NCBI RefSeq assembly: GCF_003987185.1
Contig: NZ_PIPS01000001.1
Coordinates: 620,001-684,000, forward strand
Reading direction: 5' to 3'
DNA from: Idiomarina aquatica
GTDB lineage: Bacteria; Pseudomonadota; Gammaproteobacteria; Enterobacterales; Alteromonadaceae
DNA: 64,000 nucleotides
Numbering within the stretch: position 1 is the first letter of the stretch; every line of letters starts with the position of its first letter. Positions 21,763 through 26,030 of this stretch are shown piece by piece. The notes beneath the pieces were generated by a model. It did not search any database. It was not told where the DNA came from and saw only the letters and a program-made list of their open reading frames with translations. The position numbers and the translations under genes were made by a program.

Positions 21763-22785
21763 CTAACGTTCGGCTTCGTGAGCCAACAGTTGTTTAGCGC
21801 GAGCGGCATCTTTTTCTATCTGTTGTTTCAAATGTTCTAACGAGGCAAAGCGTTGCTCTGCTCTAAGTTTAGCAACCGGTGTGACGGTGACTCGTTGACC
21901 GTACAGGTTGCCTGAAAAATCGAATAAATGCACTTCTAATTGGACTTCGTCGCCGTTCAGGGTTGGGCGGGTGCCGAGGTTGGCGACGCCGTCATAGGCT
22001 TCGCGGGTTAGGCGCTTCGCGCGGTGTAGCTCGCTGCCTTCGGCGCGAGGTTTTGGGTGCTCGCTTGGCTCGCACGATAACCCCACTTTTTCGTCAACAG
22101 TTACCGTTACGGCAAAGACGCCGTGTAGCGGGCTTTTTAGGCGTTTTAACGGGATGTTGGCGGTGGGAAAGCCGATGGTGCGGCCGTTTTTGCGCCCGTG
22201 TACGACTTTACCCTGCATTTGATAAGGGCGGCCGAGCATGGCTTCGGCGTTTTTAAAGTCGCCTTCTTCCAACGCTTTACGAATGGCGGTACTGCTGACC
22301 CGCTGTTGCTGCTGGCGGTAACTGCGGGTGTCGACCACTTCAAAGCCGAGCTCTTTACCGGCTTGCTGCAGAAGGCTGAAGTCGCCTTCGCGCTTGTAGC
22401 CAAAACGGAAGTCGTCGCCGACCACCAGAAACTTCACACCGAGTTTTTCAACCAGGGTCTTTTCAATGAATTCGCGAGCCGGTTGGCTGGCGAATTTTTT
22501 ATTAAATTCGATAACGATGTGGCGATCAACATCCTGATCACGCAGCGCCAGATACTTTTCACGCCAGTTGGTCAAGCGCGCCGGCGCCTGCTCCGGCTGG
22601 AACAACTCCTGTGGCTGGGGTTCAAAGGTCATTACCGCCGACGGCACGCCCAACGCCTCAGCCTTCGCCCGCACCTGCCGCAGTACCGCCTGGTGGCCTA
22701 AATGCACGCCATCGAAGTTGCCGATGGTTAATACGCAACCCCGGTGCTCTGCACGTAAATTGTGTGTACCGCGAATCAGTTCCAT
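21763..22785 (-). CDS. ribF: Bifunctional riboflavin kinase/FAD synthetase RibF with an unusual insertion
   Basis: 340 residues. N-terminal FAD synthetase domain ('TIGNFDGVHLGHQAVL', 'GDDFRFGYKREGD', 'RVSSTAIRKAL') and C-terminal riboflavin kinase domain ('GRTIGFPTANIPL', 'GVANLGTRPTLNG', 'EVHLFDFSGNLYGQ'). About 30 residues (234-263) have been inserted between the strand ending VTVDEK and the conserved 'YDGVANLGTRP'. The DNA of the insert contains a REP-like palindrome (22026-22049), so it looks like an in-frame repeat insertion in a loop. Catalytic motifs are intact. Confidence 0.95.
   Translation of the reverse strand: MELIRGTHNLRAEHRGCVLTIGNFDGVHLGHQAVLRQVRAKAEALGVPSAVMTFEPQPQELFQPEQAPARLTNWREKYLALRDQDVDRHIVIEFNKKFASQPAREFIEKTLVEKLGVKFLVVGDDFRFGYKREGDFSLLQQAGKELGFEVVDTRSYRQQQQRVSSTAIRKALEEGDFKNAEAMLGRPYQMQGKVVHGRKNGRTIGFPTANIPLKRLKSPLHGVFAVTVTVDEKVGLSCEPSEHPKPRAEGSELHRAKRLTREAYDGVANLGTRPTLNGDEVQLEVHLFDFSGNLYGQRVTVTPVAKLRAEQRFASLEHLKQQIEKDAARAKQLLAHEAER
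21997..22086. repeat. REP-like insertion inside ribF
   Basis: On the minus strand CTCGCGCC-GAAGGCA-GCGAG then CTAC (22026-22049), with a following GCGCGAAGCGC mini-dyad. It encodes residues about 234-263 of RibF, a segment with no counterpart in the E. coli protein as I recall it. Confidence 0.7.
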
Positions 22786-22916
22786 GACGGGCGAGTCCGT
22801 ACCCTGTTTTTCGAGTGTTTGAGAAAGCGCCGATTATAACCGAAACCTGGGCGTGAAACCACGGCTGTTTACGGACGTTGTCCGCGGCTTTTTGTTGGCT
22901 TCGCCAACGGCTGTTT

Positions 22917-22997
22917 GCTGCTTGCTACGCGCGCAGCGGTTTTTTGCACCTTCGGCGCGGCTATTGGCAACCTGCCTTCGGCGGTTGCGGCTGTTTT
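22917..22997 (+). repeat. Element 1 left inverted arm
   Basis: 81 bp matching the reverse complement of 23492-23572 with about eight mismatches. It contains three hairpins: GCTGCTTGC/GCGCAGC, GCACC-TTC-GGCGC, and GCAACC/GGTTGC with CCTTCGG inside. A further pair of hairpins continues outward to 22858. Confidence 0.8.
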
Positions 22998-23107
22998 CGG
23001 CTCGCTTCGCTCGCCGGGAAAATTATGGCATTTGTTGTGTGGGAAATATCGCAAATTTGCTTTGCTTTTAGAATGAGTTGCTAGGCTTTTGTCATTTGGG
23101 TGAAGCG

Positions 23108-23461
23108 ATGAACTATCACACACTTTGGGTTTGGCAAGAGTCGATGGCGCTGGCAACCGCTGTTTTGCGCCATGTCAGTGACTCTAAGCACTATTTCTTT
23201 AGAGACCAAATTGGTCGTTCAGCGCTGTCGATTCCGAGCAATATAGCGGAAGCCATGGTGAGGGACACGATGGCGGACCGGCGGAGAATCCTGTTTTACG
23301 CCATCGGGTCGAGTGCGGAACTCGAAACACAACTAGCCATCGGCAAAGACTTAAACTGGTTAACCCATCCGGACATAAAGCAGTGGCAAAACACCAACAC
23401 CCGAATTCAAATCTCATTACACCGCCTGACTAACAGCCTTTCCCAGACCCAGTCGCGCTGA
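23108..23461 (+). CDS. Four-helix-bundle protein (S23 / 23S rRNA intervening-sequence family)
   Basis: 117 residues. 'MNYHTLWVWQESMALATAVL', 'FRDQIGRSALSIPSNIAEAM', 'LFYAIGSSAELETQLAIG' and a C-terminal helix fit the TIGR02436 four-helix-bundle family, which is encoded in 23S rRNA intervening sequences and in many dispersed genes; related Avd proteins work in diversity-generating retroelements. Known functions are otherwise lacking. Here it lies outside rRNA, between inverted hairpin arms, and its stop codon is inside a REP palindrome. A part in mobilising or binding the palindromes is a hypothesis. The ATG at 23108 is chosen over 23078 by family alignment. Confidence 0.85.
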   Translation: MNYHTLWVWQESMALATAVLRHVSDSKHYFFRDQIGRSALSIPSNIAEAMVRDTMADRRRILFYAIGSSAELETQLAIGKDLNWLTHPDIKQWQNTNTRIQISLHRLTNSLSQTQSR

Positions 23462-23474
23462 AAGCGCGACCTAC
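23452..23474. repeat. REP-like palindrome at the end of the four-helix-bundle gene
   Basis: GTCGCGC-TGAAA-GCGCGAC then CTAC. The TGA of the gene (23459-23461) is in the loop. Same GTCGCG...CGCGAC-CTAC architecture as the copies in flhF and flgJ. Confidence 0.8.
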
Positions 23475-23491
23475 CCCGTGGTAAGCGAATC

Positions 23492-23661
23492 GATAACAGC
23501 CGCAACCGCCGAAGGCAGGTTGCCAATAGCCGCGCCGAAGGCGCAAAAGCCGCTGCGAGCGAAGCAAGCAGCAAACAGCCTCGGCGAAGCCGACAACAGC
23601 CGCGCCGAAGGCGCAAATAACCGTTGCGCAGCAACAAACAACCGCGCCGCAGGCGCAATTA
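23492..23661 (+). repeat. Element 1 right arm: seven tandem hairpins with constant spacers
   Basis: Hairpins in order: GCAACC/GGTTGC, GCGCC-GAA-GGCGC, GCTGC/GCAGC, TCGGC-GAA-GCCGA, GCGCC-GAA-GGCGC, GTTGC-GCA-GCAAC, GCGCC-GCA-GGCGC. Each is preceded by a spacer of the form AA(A/C)(A/C/T)A(G/A)CC. Stem sequences differ while pairing is kept. The final spacer AATTACC overlaps the murJ stop codon. Confidence 0.85.
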
Positions 23662-25218
23662 CCGGTGGCCGGCGATGTGTCGTGGGCGTAGGCCGATGAT
23701 GATCAAGGTGGCGAGGTAGGTAGCGGCGCCTAGGCCGATGACCTGGGCCAGTAGCCAGGGGCGTTCGATGACGGAGGTGGTGCGCCAGGCTTCGGTGGCG
23801 GGGCTGAACCACAAAATGACGGCGACCATCGCCGCGGTGGCGAGGATAACCTGGATGATAAAACGCCAGGTGCCGGGTTGGGCTTTGAGCACCCCTTCTT
23901 TATGTAACGTAAAACCGAGTAAACCGGCATTGATGGCGGCGGAAGCGGCGGTCGCCATGGCCAGCCCGACGTAACTGAACGGGATCGCCAGCGCGATATT
24001 GAACACCATATTAGCAACCATGGCGATGATGCCGAATTTTACCGGGCGTTTGGTATCCTGACGCGAATAAAATCCGGTGGCTAGCACCTTAACCAGCATA
24101 AAACTCAGCAGACCGGCGGAGTATGCCATCAGACTGTAAGACGCCATGCGCGCATCGTCCGGTGAGAACGCGCCGTGCATAAACAACACCATTAACATCG
24201 GTTCGGCCAGGAAAAACAGGCCCGCCATCGCCGGCACCCCGAGGATCAGCACCATGCGGATACCCCAGTCGAGGGTTTTGGTGAACTCCTGCGGCGATTT
24301 ATCCACATGCCGTGAGGACAGCGCCGGCAGAATCACCGTCGCAATCGCAATGCCGAACAACCCGAGCGGGAACTCTAAGAGCCGGTCGGAGTAATACAGC
24401 CAACTGATGGAGCCGGTCATCAGGAAGCTGGCAATCAAGGTGTCTAACAGTAAGTTGATTTGACTGACCGACACGCCGAAGATAGCCGGTAGCATCAACT
24501 TGCGGATTTTGGTCACGCCGGGATCTTTCCAACCCCATTGCGGCTTAACCAACAAACCGGCTTTTTTCAAAAACGGGATTTGGAACAGTAACTGGATCAG
24601 ACCGCCGAAAAACACACCCCACGCCAGCCCGTATTCCGGCTGCTCGAGGTTGGGTGCGAGCCAAATCGCCGCCGCTATGATGGCGATGTTAAGAAACACC
24701 GGCGTAAACGCCGCCACCGCGAATTTACCCAGCGTATTGAGGATCGCCCCAGCCATCGCGGTAAAAGTAATAAACCATAAATAAGGAAAGGTGATGCGCA
24801 ACAAGTCGCTGGCGAGCTCGAATTTATGCCCTTGCGGGCCATCGTGCCACCAGTCCAGGAACCAGCCCATACCGAACAGCGCGGTCACCAGCGGCGACGC
24901 GATCACCCCAAACAACGTCACGACGGTGATGATGGTACCCAGGGTGCCGGACACCCGCGCGATCAGCAGTTGCTGCTCAGGAAGCTCCCTCCCCTGTTTG
25001 TATTCGGTCAGTACCGGCACAAAAGCCTGCGCAAACGCGCCCTCGGCAAACAGCCGTCTTAGGAAGTTGGGGATTTTGTTGGCAAAGAAGAAGACATCCG
25101 CCGCCGCACCGGCACCCATCAGGTTCGCGATCACCACGTCGCGCACCAGCCCGAGAACCCGCGAGATGAGGGTCATAAAGCTGACGATGAATCCGGATTT
25201 GAGCAACGAGTTTGACAC
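23659..25218 (-). CDS. murJ: Lipid II flippase MurJ (MviN)
   Basis: 519 residues of a MOP-superfamily flippase with about 14 transmembrane helices, moving lipid II across the inner membrane. 'SGFIVSFMTLISRVLGLVRDVVIANLMGAG', 'DVFFFANKIPNFLRRLFAEGAFAQAFVPV' and 'LAYSAGLLSFMLVKVLATGFYSRQDTK'-like segments are typical. I take the GTG at 25218 (after AAAGGA), giving VSNSLLKSG; the open frame extends 79 codons further but that part is hairpin array. The TAA lies in the array of element 1. Two element copies flank the gene. Confidence 0.95.
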   Translation of the reverse strand: MSNSLLKSGFIVSFMTLISRVLGLVRDVVIANLMGAGAAADVFFFANKIPNFLRRLFAEGAFAQAFVPVLTEYKQGRELPEQQLLIARVSGTLGTIITVVTLFGVIASPLVTALFGMGWFLDWWHDGPQGHKFELASDLLRITFPYLWFITFTAMAGAILNTLGKFAVAAFTPVFLNIAIIAAAIWLAPNLEQPEYGLAWGVFFGGLIQLLFQIPFLKKAGLLVKPQWGWKDPGVTKIRKLMLPAIFGVSVSQINLLLDTLIASFLMTGSISWLYYSDRLLEFPLGLFGIAIATVILPALSSRHVDKSPQEFTKTLDWGIRMVLILGVPAMAGLFFLAEPMLMVLFMHGAFSPDDARMASYSLMAYSAGLLSFMLVKVLATGFYSRQDTKRPVKFGIIAMVANMVFNIALAIPFSYVGLAMATAASAAINAGLLGFTLHKEGVLKAQPGTWRFIIQVILATAAMVAVILWFSPATEAWRTTSVIERPWLLAQVIGLGAATYLATLIIIGLRPRHIAGHR

Positions 25219-25229
25219 TACAATCCTTT

Positions 25230-25672
25230 GTCGCTTTGCGACGGCTATTTGCGCCTTCGGCGCGGCTGTTTGCGGACGTTGTCCGCGGCTTTTTGTTGGC
25301 TTCGCCAACGGCTGTTTGCTGCTTGCTACGCGCGCAGCGGCTGTTAGCACCTGCGGCGCGGCTGTTGGCAACCTGCCTTCGGCGGTTGCGGCTGTTTTCG
25401 GCTCGCTTCGCTCGCCGGGAAAATTATGGCATTTGTTGTGTGGGAAATATCGCAAATTTGCTTTGCTTTTACAATTAGATGCTTAGCCTTTTGCTGTTTG
25501 GGTGACGCAAATCGTATTTCGCCCCCGGCAAGCGAAGCAGCCGAAGGCTCGCAGCAAACAGCCTCGGCGAAGCGGACAACAGCCGTTGCGCAGCAACAAA
25601 CAGCAGGGCCGCAGGCCCAAACAGCCGCACCGAAGGTGCAAACACCCGCGGAGACAGTCCGCAAAAAACCAT
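25230..25672. mobile_element. Hairpin-array element 2, gene-less copy
   Basis: 25262-25504 is about 93% identical to 22861-23104 (left arm plus the AT-rich leader of the four-helix gene). Exactly where that gene should begin, the sequence passes into a right-hand hairpin array (about 25528-25672). This is the structure expected of a non-autonomous derivative. It lies between murJ and rpsT and ends 20 bp before the rpsT -35 box; murJ must be transcribed through or from it. Confidence 0.65.
25262..25504 (+). repeat. 243-bp direct repeat of 22861-23104
   Basis: Near-identical copy of the element 1 left arm and leader, in the same orientation, 2401 bp away. Differences are scattered substitutions concentrated near the end of the leader. 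Confidence 0.9.
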
Positions 25673-25769: not shown

Positions 25770-26030
25770 TTGGCTAACATTAAGTCTGCTAAAAAGCGTG
25801 CGATCCAAGCCGAGAAAAATCGCCGCCACAATGCAAGCCGTCGCTCAATGATGCGTACCTACCTCAAGCGCGTAAACGCTGCGATTGAGAGCAAAGACAA
25901 AGAAGCTGCAACTGCAGCACTGAAAAACGTAACCCCTTTGTTGGACCGTTACGCAACTAAAGGCTTGATCAGCAAAAACAAAGCGGCACGTCATAAGAGC
26001 CGTTTGAACGCTAAGATCCAAACGCTTTAA
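25770..26030 (+). CDS. rpsT: 30S ribosomal protein S20
   Basis: 86 residues, '[34 protein letters not shown]', basic and helical, normal length. It binds 16S rRNA early in 30S assembly. It starts with TTG after a TAGGAG ribosome site, the same rare start codon as E. coli rpsT, where it is tied to autogenous control; keeping it here suggests the same control. Divergent from murJ, and followed by a strong terminator. Confidence 0.97.

Follow-up and report, generated by a model that had tools for sequence, protein, structure and literature searches.

Intervening sequences (IVSs) of 23S rRNA with an S23/IVP open reading frame (ORF) are known in Coxiella, and Leptospira and Brucella are named as well in the part of that account available to us; RNase III cuts the IVS stems, and the S23 proteins have a solved structure, one homolog being a pentamer of four-helix bundles, but their function is not known (PMC4990558). 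Here we describe an S23 gene enclosed by two inverted arrays of short repeats in Idiomarina aquatica, together with a gene-less copy of the same structure. Both lie in a stretch of 64,000 nucleotides (contig NZ_PIPS01000001.1, positions 620,001 to 684,000), referred to below as the window.

Heptameric repeat units make up the short tandemly repeated repetitive sequences of cyanobacteria. Other heptameric simple sequence repeats (SSRs), as far as excerpts of that literature go, are GGGAATC in Xanthomonas, GGGGA(T/C)T in Nostoc and Anabaena, and TAACTGA in Beggiatoaceae. According to the sections of PMC4692102 available, heptamers are over-represented in bacterial genomes and have had no detailed study, polymerase slippage being suggested behind their abundance; the corresponding sections of PMC4679880 propose that a repeat-binding protein may be the mobile element, without naming S23. 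The Avd protein of diversity-generating retroelements (DGRs) resembles the S23 family, PF05635, by structural comparison, as stated in an excerpt of PMC10053308. Among the best-ranked matches in a mostly open-access literature we found no description of IVS arms as 7-bp arrays, and no publication linking S23 with heptamers.

We propose, at slightly better than even confidence, that a single selfish, probably mobile element is made up of the S23 gene together with both of its inverted arms. The proposal is based on the architecture of the loci, the inversion of the arms, the unit that they share, occupied and empty orthologous gaps, solo arrays of the same unit, and purifying selection on the gene.

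In the gene-bearing copy a left arm (22863..23018, ends approximate), made up of mini-hairpins whose linkers read GGCTGTT on the forward strand, is followed by a leader (23019..23107, forward strand) common to the gene-less copy and to one congener (G001), by the S23 gene (23108..23461, forward strand) and by a right arm (23483..23658), which is inverted relative to the left one and consists of 21-bp units with AACAGCC linkers. The 117-aa product matches PF05635 (S23, 23S-IVS) with 80.4 bits (curated cut-off 33.8) and TIGR02436 with 82.3 bits (cut-off 24), its predicted structure has four helices (predicted local distance difference test 95.5), and it is homologous to XCC0516 (2GSC, E 3.7e-10), in agreement with the sequence-only reading, which had named an S23/IVS-type four-helix gene here. 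That reading had also reported 81-bp inverted arms of about 90% identity; these are covered by inverted repeats of 66 nt (22942-23007 and 23483-23548, 94%) and 36 nt (22909-22944 and 23545-23580, 92%), and the left arm matches 23483-23604 in inverted orientation at 90%. The gene-less copy comprises a left arm (25227..25422, ends approximate), a leader remnant (25423..25508, forward strand) and a right arm of opposite orientation (25523..25672, ends approximate). Positions 22862-23090 and 25263-25491 are 95% identical across 229 nt, and 25263-25508 as a whole is 94% identical to the left arm and leader of the gene-bearing copy. As had been claimed, the second locus repeats the left arm and leader without the gene and enters an opposite-facing array where the gene should start, the homology ending at that point. 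Both copies have the terminal inverted repeats.

The arrays in the window are series of short hairpins with AACAGCC-like linkers between them, and in arrays of this type hairpins and linkers are often spaced 21 bp apart. Together the four stretches of array contain 14 perfect hairpins with three-base loops and stems of at least 5; 500 dinucleotide shuffles averaged 0.97 and never exceeded 4. When stems of at least 4 are listed, 12 of 19 loops are GAA or GCA; GNA loops give stable DNA mini-hairpins. The DNA folding energy of whole arrays is weakly unusual (z -0.1 to -2.5 in six foldings), too weak to serve as evidence of structure, and was set aside. No Rfam family matched within the 64-kb window at gathering thresholds. 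Comparison of the S23 gene in the window with that of G001 gave a proportion of nonsynonymous differences (pN) of 0.16 against a saturated proportion of synonymous ones (pS) of 0.95, and two other orthologous S23 pairs gave 0.20/0.84 and 0.16/0.75. The ratio is far below one, which indicates that S23 is under purifying selection.

A similar arrangement is found at most of the S23 loci examined. Repeats were scored by lag, with thresholds set by us at 12 for the lag score and 14 for arm alignment. The class-level set consists of 67 loci chosen from 112 matches (30 loci and 37 of 40 further ones); L186 of genome G424, which is treated apart, and the DGR-like L224 and L225, unmatched by the S23 profile used, were left out together with weak, partial, own-genome and unfetched matches, and several loci share one genome (G143, G400). 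Repeats of lag 7 lie within 200 nt of S23 in 51 of these 67 loci, any other lag from 4 to 13 being found in 0–2. Of at least 584 matches the best 80 were also scored (L041 and L070 among them duplicate the genus loci L017 and L015). The lag-7 score reaches 12 within 250 nt in 56 of these 80 loci, compared with 21 of 145 neighboring ORFs, and lags 4-6 and 8-13 do so in at most 5%. The same signal was found at 12 of 13 plasmid loci (13 of 20 records, 11 of the 13 cyanobacterial) and at four of six loci outside the genus but within its family or order. Overall, 116 of 168 non-redundant S23 loci were classified by the thresholds as heptad and 11 as hairpin, the latter count being incomplete since the hairpin test misses some known hairpin loci. 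The arms of most S23 loci are arrays with a 7-bp period and not the palindromes of the sequence-only reading. Among seven genus loci, arms of the window's type show lag 7 at one (not the window's locus) and lag 21 at two, and the 21-bp hairpin unit is possibly to be read as three times seven. Two loci, L015 and L045, appear by eye to combine heptads with mini-hairpins and are possible intermediates of the two arm types.

The arms of one locus are mirror images of each other. Inverted matches between them were found in 41 of 66 loci of the class-level set, direct ones in 6 of 66 and matches with swapped partners in 4 of 330; the corresponding numbers are 37 of 77, 11 of 77 and 8 of 385 for the 80 best matches, and 8 of 13, 1 of 13 and 6 of 65 for plasmids. 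Both arms are periodic in 84 of 160 loci, and in 56 of these 84 the inverted 7-mers agree within one mismatch (2.6% for arms of swapped partners); 82 distinct units occur among 104 periodic downstream arms. Along the coding strand, purines tend to predominate in the upstream arm and pyrimidines in the downstream one. That S23 generally inserted into a tandem array already present was considered and rejected, because the arms would then be direct, and they are inverted.

The strongest competing explanation is that S23 is a passenger, merely surviving between arrays that the host makes and homogenizes, through slippage during replication and through template switching where palindromes are imperfect. 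It agrees with the slippage suggested for heptamers (PMC4692102, in the part available), with solo arrays in the same genomes, and with seven of 18 xanthomonad genomes that have GGGAATC arrays and no detected S23. Slippage yields direct arrays, however, and not mirror pairs with a shared unit around one gene family. In addition, HepT genes of the same class, used as a control, show lag-7 repeats in none of 22 cases, compared with 54 of 67 S23 loci in 260-nt windows (Fisher 3.7e-12, the loci not being independent; HepT windows begin at the hidden Markov model match and not at the ORF end, and of 30 such windows eight fell in the wrong place at contig ends, leaving 22). We consider the passenger explanation unlikely, with a chance of about one in four, and continue to favor an S23 element.

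The xanthomonads were examined through 78 genomes, those of the family to which G424 belongs. Of 30 S23 loci in them, 20 reach the lag-7 threshold, and in genomes with a dispersed GGGAATC array GGGANT flanks S23 (at least two on each side) at 8 of 12 loci. The 20 GGGAATC places in G449 and G442 comprise seven converging pairs, no diverging ones and 13 single arrays, the converging order being that of S23 arms. Among the genomes of the class, three consecutive GGGAATC units occur in one of 369, which is also S23-matched. A further unit, CCTTGNN (this label and GGGANTN were assigned by eye), was searched as four copies in 16 chosen genomes and found in four of six with a CCTTG-like S23 unit and in one of ten others; the test is a weak one, as the reversed pattern was itself hit once in G504, three times in G507 and 13 times in G516. 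In G503, one of the four, the sole match is its own S23 array.

S23 genes are also situated inside operons and gene clusters, such as cysD-cysN and accB-accC (both identified by eye), cas6-cas4 and cas10-cmr3. The accB-accC gap, as read by eye, holds many of the xanthomonad loci, and on the cyanobacterial plasmids L153, L154 and L160 S23 is flanked either by cas6 and cas4 or by cas10 and cmr3. An S23 gene with heptad arms on a plasmid of Azospirillum lipoferum (L161) lies within a 23S rRNA gene (RF02541, 283-3330), so that, judging from the one IVS examined, a classical 23S IVS can share the layout of S23 plus heptad arms. These positions, together with RNase III cleavage of IVS stems (PMC4990558, in the part available), are what one would expect if the arms were stems cut by RNase III to the benefit of the host or of S23, insulating the S23 mRNA in operons, with only ordinary recombination involved. 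Such an RNA-processing cassette leaves unexplained the 7-bp period, the locus-private unit, the solo arrays and the in-frame array block in ribF described below, and we regard it as improbable, more so than the passenger explanation. A selfish S23 element would accommodate the same positions through excision of its RNA, as discussed below.

The genome of the window (G000) contains three S23 genes, each within hairpin arrays of a different unit (units read by eye). At the second one (L001 1804-3060, G000:C1 ~915291-916547) an IS200/IS605-type OrfB-like gene, identified by eye, abuts S23 and replaces its C-terminus, and a Y1_Tnp fragment lies directly beyond it. Two linked AACAGCC units were searched as one pattern across the 19 genomes of the genus and gave three hits in G000, six in G001 (four overlapping in one array), eight in G005, one in G014 and none in the other 15; the hit in G014 and one in G005 are not hairpins, and the reversed pattern gave four hits in the 19 genomes (one each in G000, G004, G005 and G015). 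AACAGCC hairpin arrays are thus present in three of 19 genomes (G000, G001, G005), all of which have S23; among the remaining 16 it is confined to G018, the match in G010 being of DGR type and below the cut-off. The link between arms and gene drawn in the sequence-only reading is supported here. Solo arrays exist, including arrays with the window's unit elsewhere in the window genome. Setting aside the loci with S23, those at the rpsT site and both hits that are not hairpins leaves 12 distinct solo hairpin arrays, of which eight are inverted pairs (GGCTGTT on the left, AACAGCC on the right; the pair at L007 has an extra outer unit) and four are single. A mini-hairpin block even lies in frame within ribF (~21996-22084): in 17 congeners (G001 left out), whose alignments vary in detail, it is ungapped in G005 and G009 and corresponds to a gap in 15, and the ribF of G018 has a different hairpin block at the same place.

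Hairpin arrays of this kind recall repetitive extragenic palindromic (REP) sequences, and they might be moved by a Y1 transposase, with S23 incidental; Y1_Tnp genes are indeed present in G000, G001 and G005. Eight congeners that lack these arrays have them as well, the five Y1 regions read (of six hits in G000, G001 and G005) are all unframed by arrays, and most S23 loci have heptads and not REPs. At L312 the Y1 hit is flanked by a linker 8-mer in forward orientation and another in reverse, and we read them as chance because no hairpin accompanies them. Movement by a Y1 transposase is accordingly very improbable, and the S23 element remains our preferred explanation for the solo arrays.

We next consider the two gaps around murJ (23659..25197, reverse strand; 512 codons as query, the listed ORF extending upstream to 25455), which lies between the two copies, its stop codon (23659-23661) adjoining the right arm of the gene-bearing one. 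The neighbor on the left is ribF (21763..22785, reverse strand) and that on the right is rpsT (25770..26030, forward strand). We located murJ in all 19 genomes of the genus (the window genome and 18 congeners). The murJ-ribF gap, which holds the gene-bearing copy in the window, measures 79-82 bp in 15 of 18 congeners and 154 bp in G012, and is filled with other repeats in G005 and G001; in G001 (L024) these are 857 bp of another palindromic repeat family, CCCCTTCGGCGAGCCGAAGGGTACC. The murJ-rpsT gap of G001 contains arms and an intact S23 gene, oriented as the gene-less leader of the window, and in that of G005 an arm and what is left of the leader are accompanied by an ORF in place of S23, by eye a nucleotidyltransferase-like one. 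In eight congeners this gap is short (189-256 bp), and in four (G002, G003, G010 and G016; L027, L026, L029 and L032, respectively) it is about 900 bp and holds a HepT/MntA-like toxin-antitoxin pair by eye; rpsT was absent from the 1.5 kb examined beside murJ in four congeners. The presence of this pair where G001 has the S23 element gives the murJ-rpsT gap the appearance of an insertion hot spot.

Since G001 keeps an intact S23 gene there, the rpsT-site copy of the window is best seen as a remnant at the older site. In an alignment of four left arms with leaders the two copies of the window are nearest each other. From this alignment and the gap comparison, it appears that an S23 element already occupied the rpsT site before the divergence of these species, that the gene-bearing murJ-ribF copy is a newcomer in the lineage of the window, and that the gene was lost at the old rpsT site. 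The sequence-only reading had likened the two copies to an autonomous element and a miniature inverted-repeat transposable element (MITE); the shared inverted repeats agree with this, while the gene-less copy as a MITE that jumped is ruled out in the window by the S23 gene of G001 at that site. The comparison of occupied and empty gaps gave short murJ-ribF gaps in most congeners; no sharp insertion boundaries or target duplications could be defined. On the sequences compared, the view that gene and arms behave as a unit is supported, and an S23 element would explain both the gene-bearing copy in one gap and the empty shell in the other. A duplication or gene conversion on the 2.4-kb scale as the origin of both copies, with the rest being repeat noise, fits their distance of 2.4 kb, their 95% likeness and their fuzzy boundaries, but S23 elements with other units at unrelated sites of the same genome and its relatives, and the strong general association of S23 with arrays, make it scarcely credible.

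Several observations weigh against an S23 element. The arms in the window have no lag-7 signal, two periodic arms are lacking in 76 of 160 loci, the remaining 41 of the 168 non-redundant loci are neither heptad nor hairpin, and ORFs neighboring S23 in the 80 best-matching loci show lag 7 in 21 of 145 cases. G018, which has S23, contains arrays of another unit (by eye). The gaps around murJ are empty in relatives, but their flanks have diverged and the insertion boundaries are fuzzy; the gaps compared gave no sign of a transposition event or of a duplicated target site, and gene conversion or local duplication could lie behind the likeness of copies so close together. To our knowledge, S23 has no catalytic motif. 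In xanthomonads S23 is found in 29 of 78 genomes and three consecutive GGGAATC units in 18, with both in 11, a weak association (Fisher 0.025, uncorrected for phylogeny); seven array-bearing genomes are without detected S23. The agreement between arm unit and dispersed unit in this family is suggestive and not specific, because GGGANT is also present on both sides of S23 at nine of 18 loci in genomes without GGGAATC triplets.

As for the mechanism, we infer the mobility of the element, the action of S23 and the route of copying as follows. The arms, arrays of a short unit of usually 7 bp (in this genus a mini-hairpin, mostly of 21 bp), with the unit private to a locus or genome, common to both arms and mirror-imaged, would pair or fold when transcribed or as single-stranded DNA. 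The S23 protein would handle them as a nucleic-acid factor and not as a nuclease; in one homolog five four-helix bundles form a pentamer, and the DGR accessory protein Avd is similar to the family. It would promote the copying of arms, whether accompanied by the gene or not, and their placement in intergenic gaps, and copies losing the gene would persist as solo arrays. If the arms paired in RNA, the insert could also be excised from host transcripts, as in the 23S IVS, and insertion into operons and rRNA would therefore be tolerated.

The layout of S23 loci, with a unit that varies from place to place, suggests a type of selfish DNA element that has been overlooked. Somewhat below even confidence, and thus as a tentative generalization, we suggest that S23 is the trans-acting factor of an unrecognized, phylum-spanning class of selfish element, bounded on both sides by arrays of a private 7-mer, or its multiple, that mirror each other. 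Many dispersed heptamers, such as GGGAATC of Xanthomonas, would be its gene-less remains, the 23S IVS would be one site among many, and spread would be nuclease-free, through an Avd-like chaperone acting on its own repeat. The inverted, unit-matched association gives S23 and heptamers each a testable partner. If the proposal is true, the 23S IVS is one case of a wider class of elements, a mobile-like element exists without a recognizable nuclease, and the unexplained 7-base repeats of bacterial genomes have a possible origin.

Four known systems resemble the locus in part. The likeness to Avd extends to weak PF05635 hits in the DGR-like loci L019 and L224 (by eye), but no reverse transcriptase was noticed beside the S23 genes read, none having been searched for, and DGR loci, unscored, are without heptad arms by eye; in the window the neighbors of S23 are murJ and ribF, and not the reverse transcriptase and template/variable repeats that adjoin a DGR accessory gene. 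Ten similar PF05635 matches occur in the 1.5-Mb genome G382, and L224 and L225 look like near-identical DGRs. Heptameric SSRs share with the arms of most S23 loci the 7-bp unit and a mostly intergenic position, and GGGANT flanks S23 in several xanthomonads; the sections of PMC4692102 and PMC4679880 available leave S23 unmentioned and offer slippage, G-quadruplexes or regulation. REP-associated tyrosine transposases (RAYTs), with REPs and REP doublets (REPINs), likewise combine palindromic repeats around a gene with gene-less copies elsewhere in the genome, but the Pfam hits of the S23 protein in the window are to PF05635, with no Y1 domain, and the unit repeated in its arms is a private one. 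In the 23S IVS, as at the window locus, a PF05635 protein is encoded between inverted arms; the window copy differs in lying between murJ and ribF, outside rRNA, and in having arms that are arrays of hairpin units.

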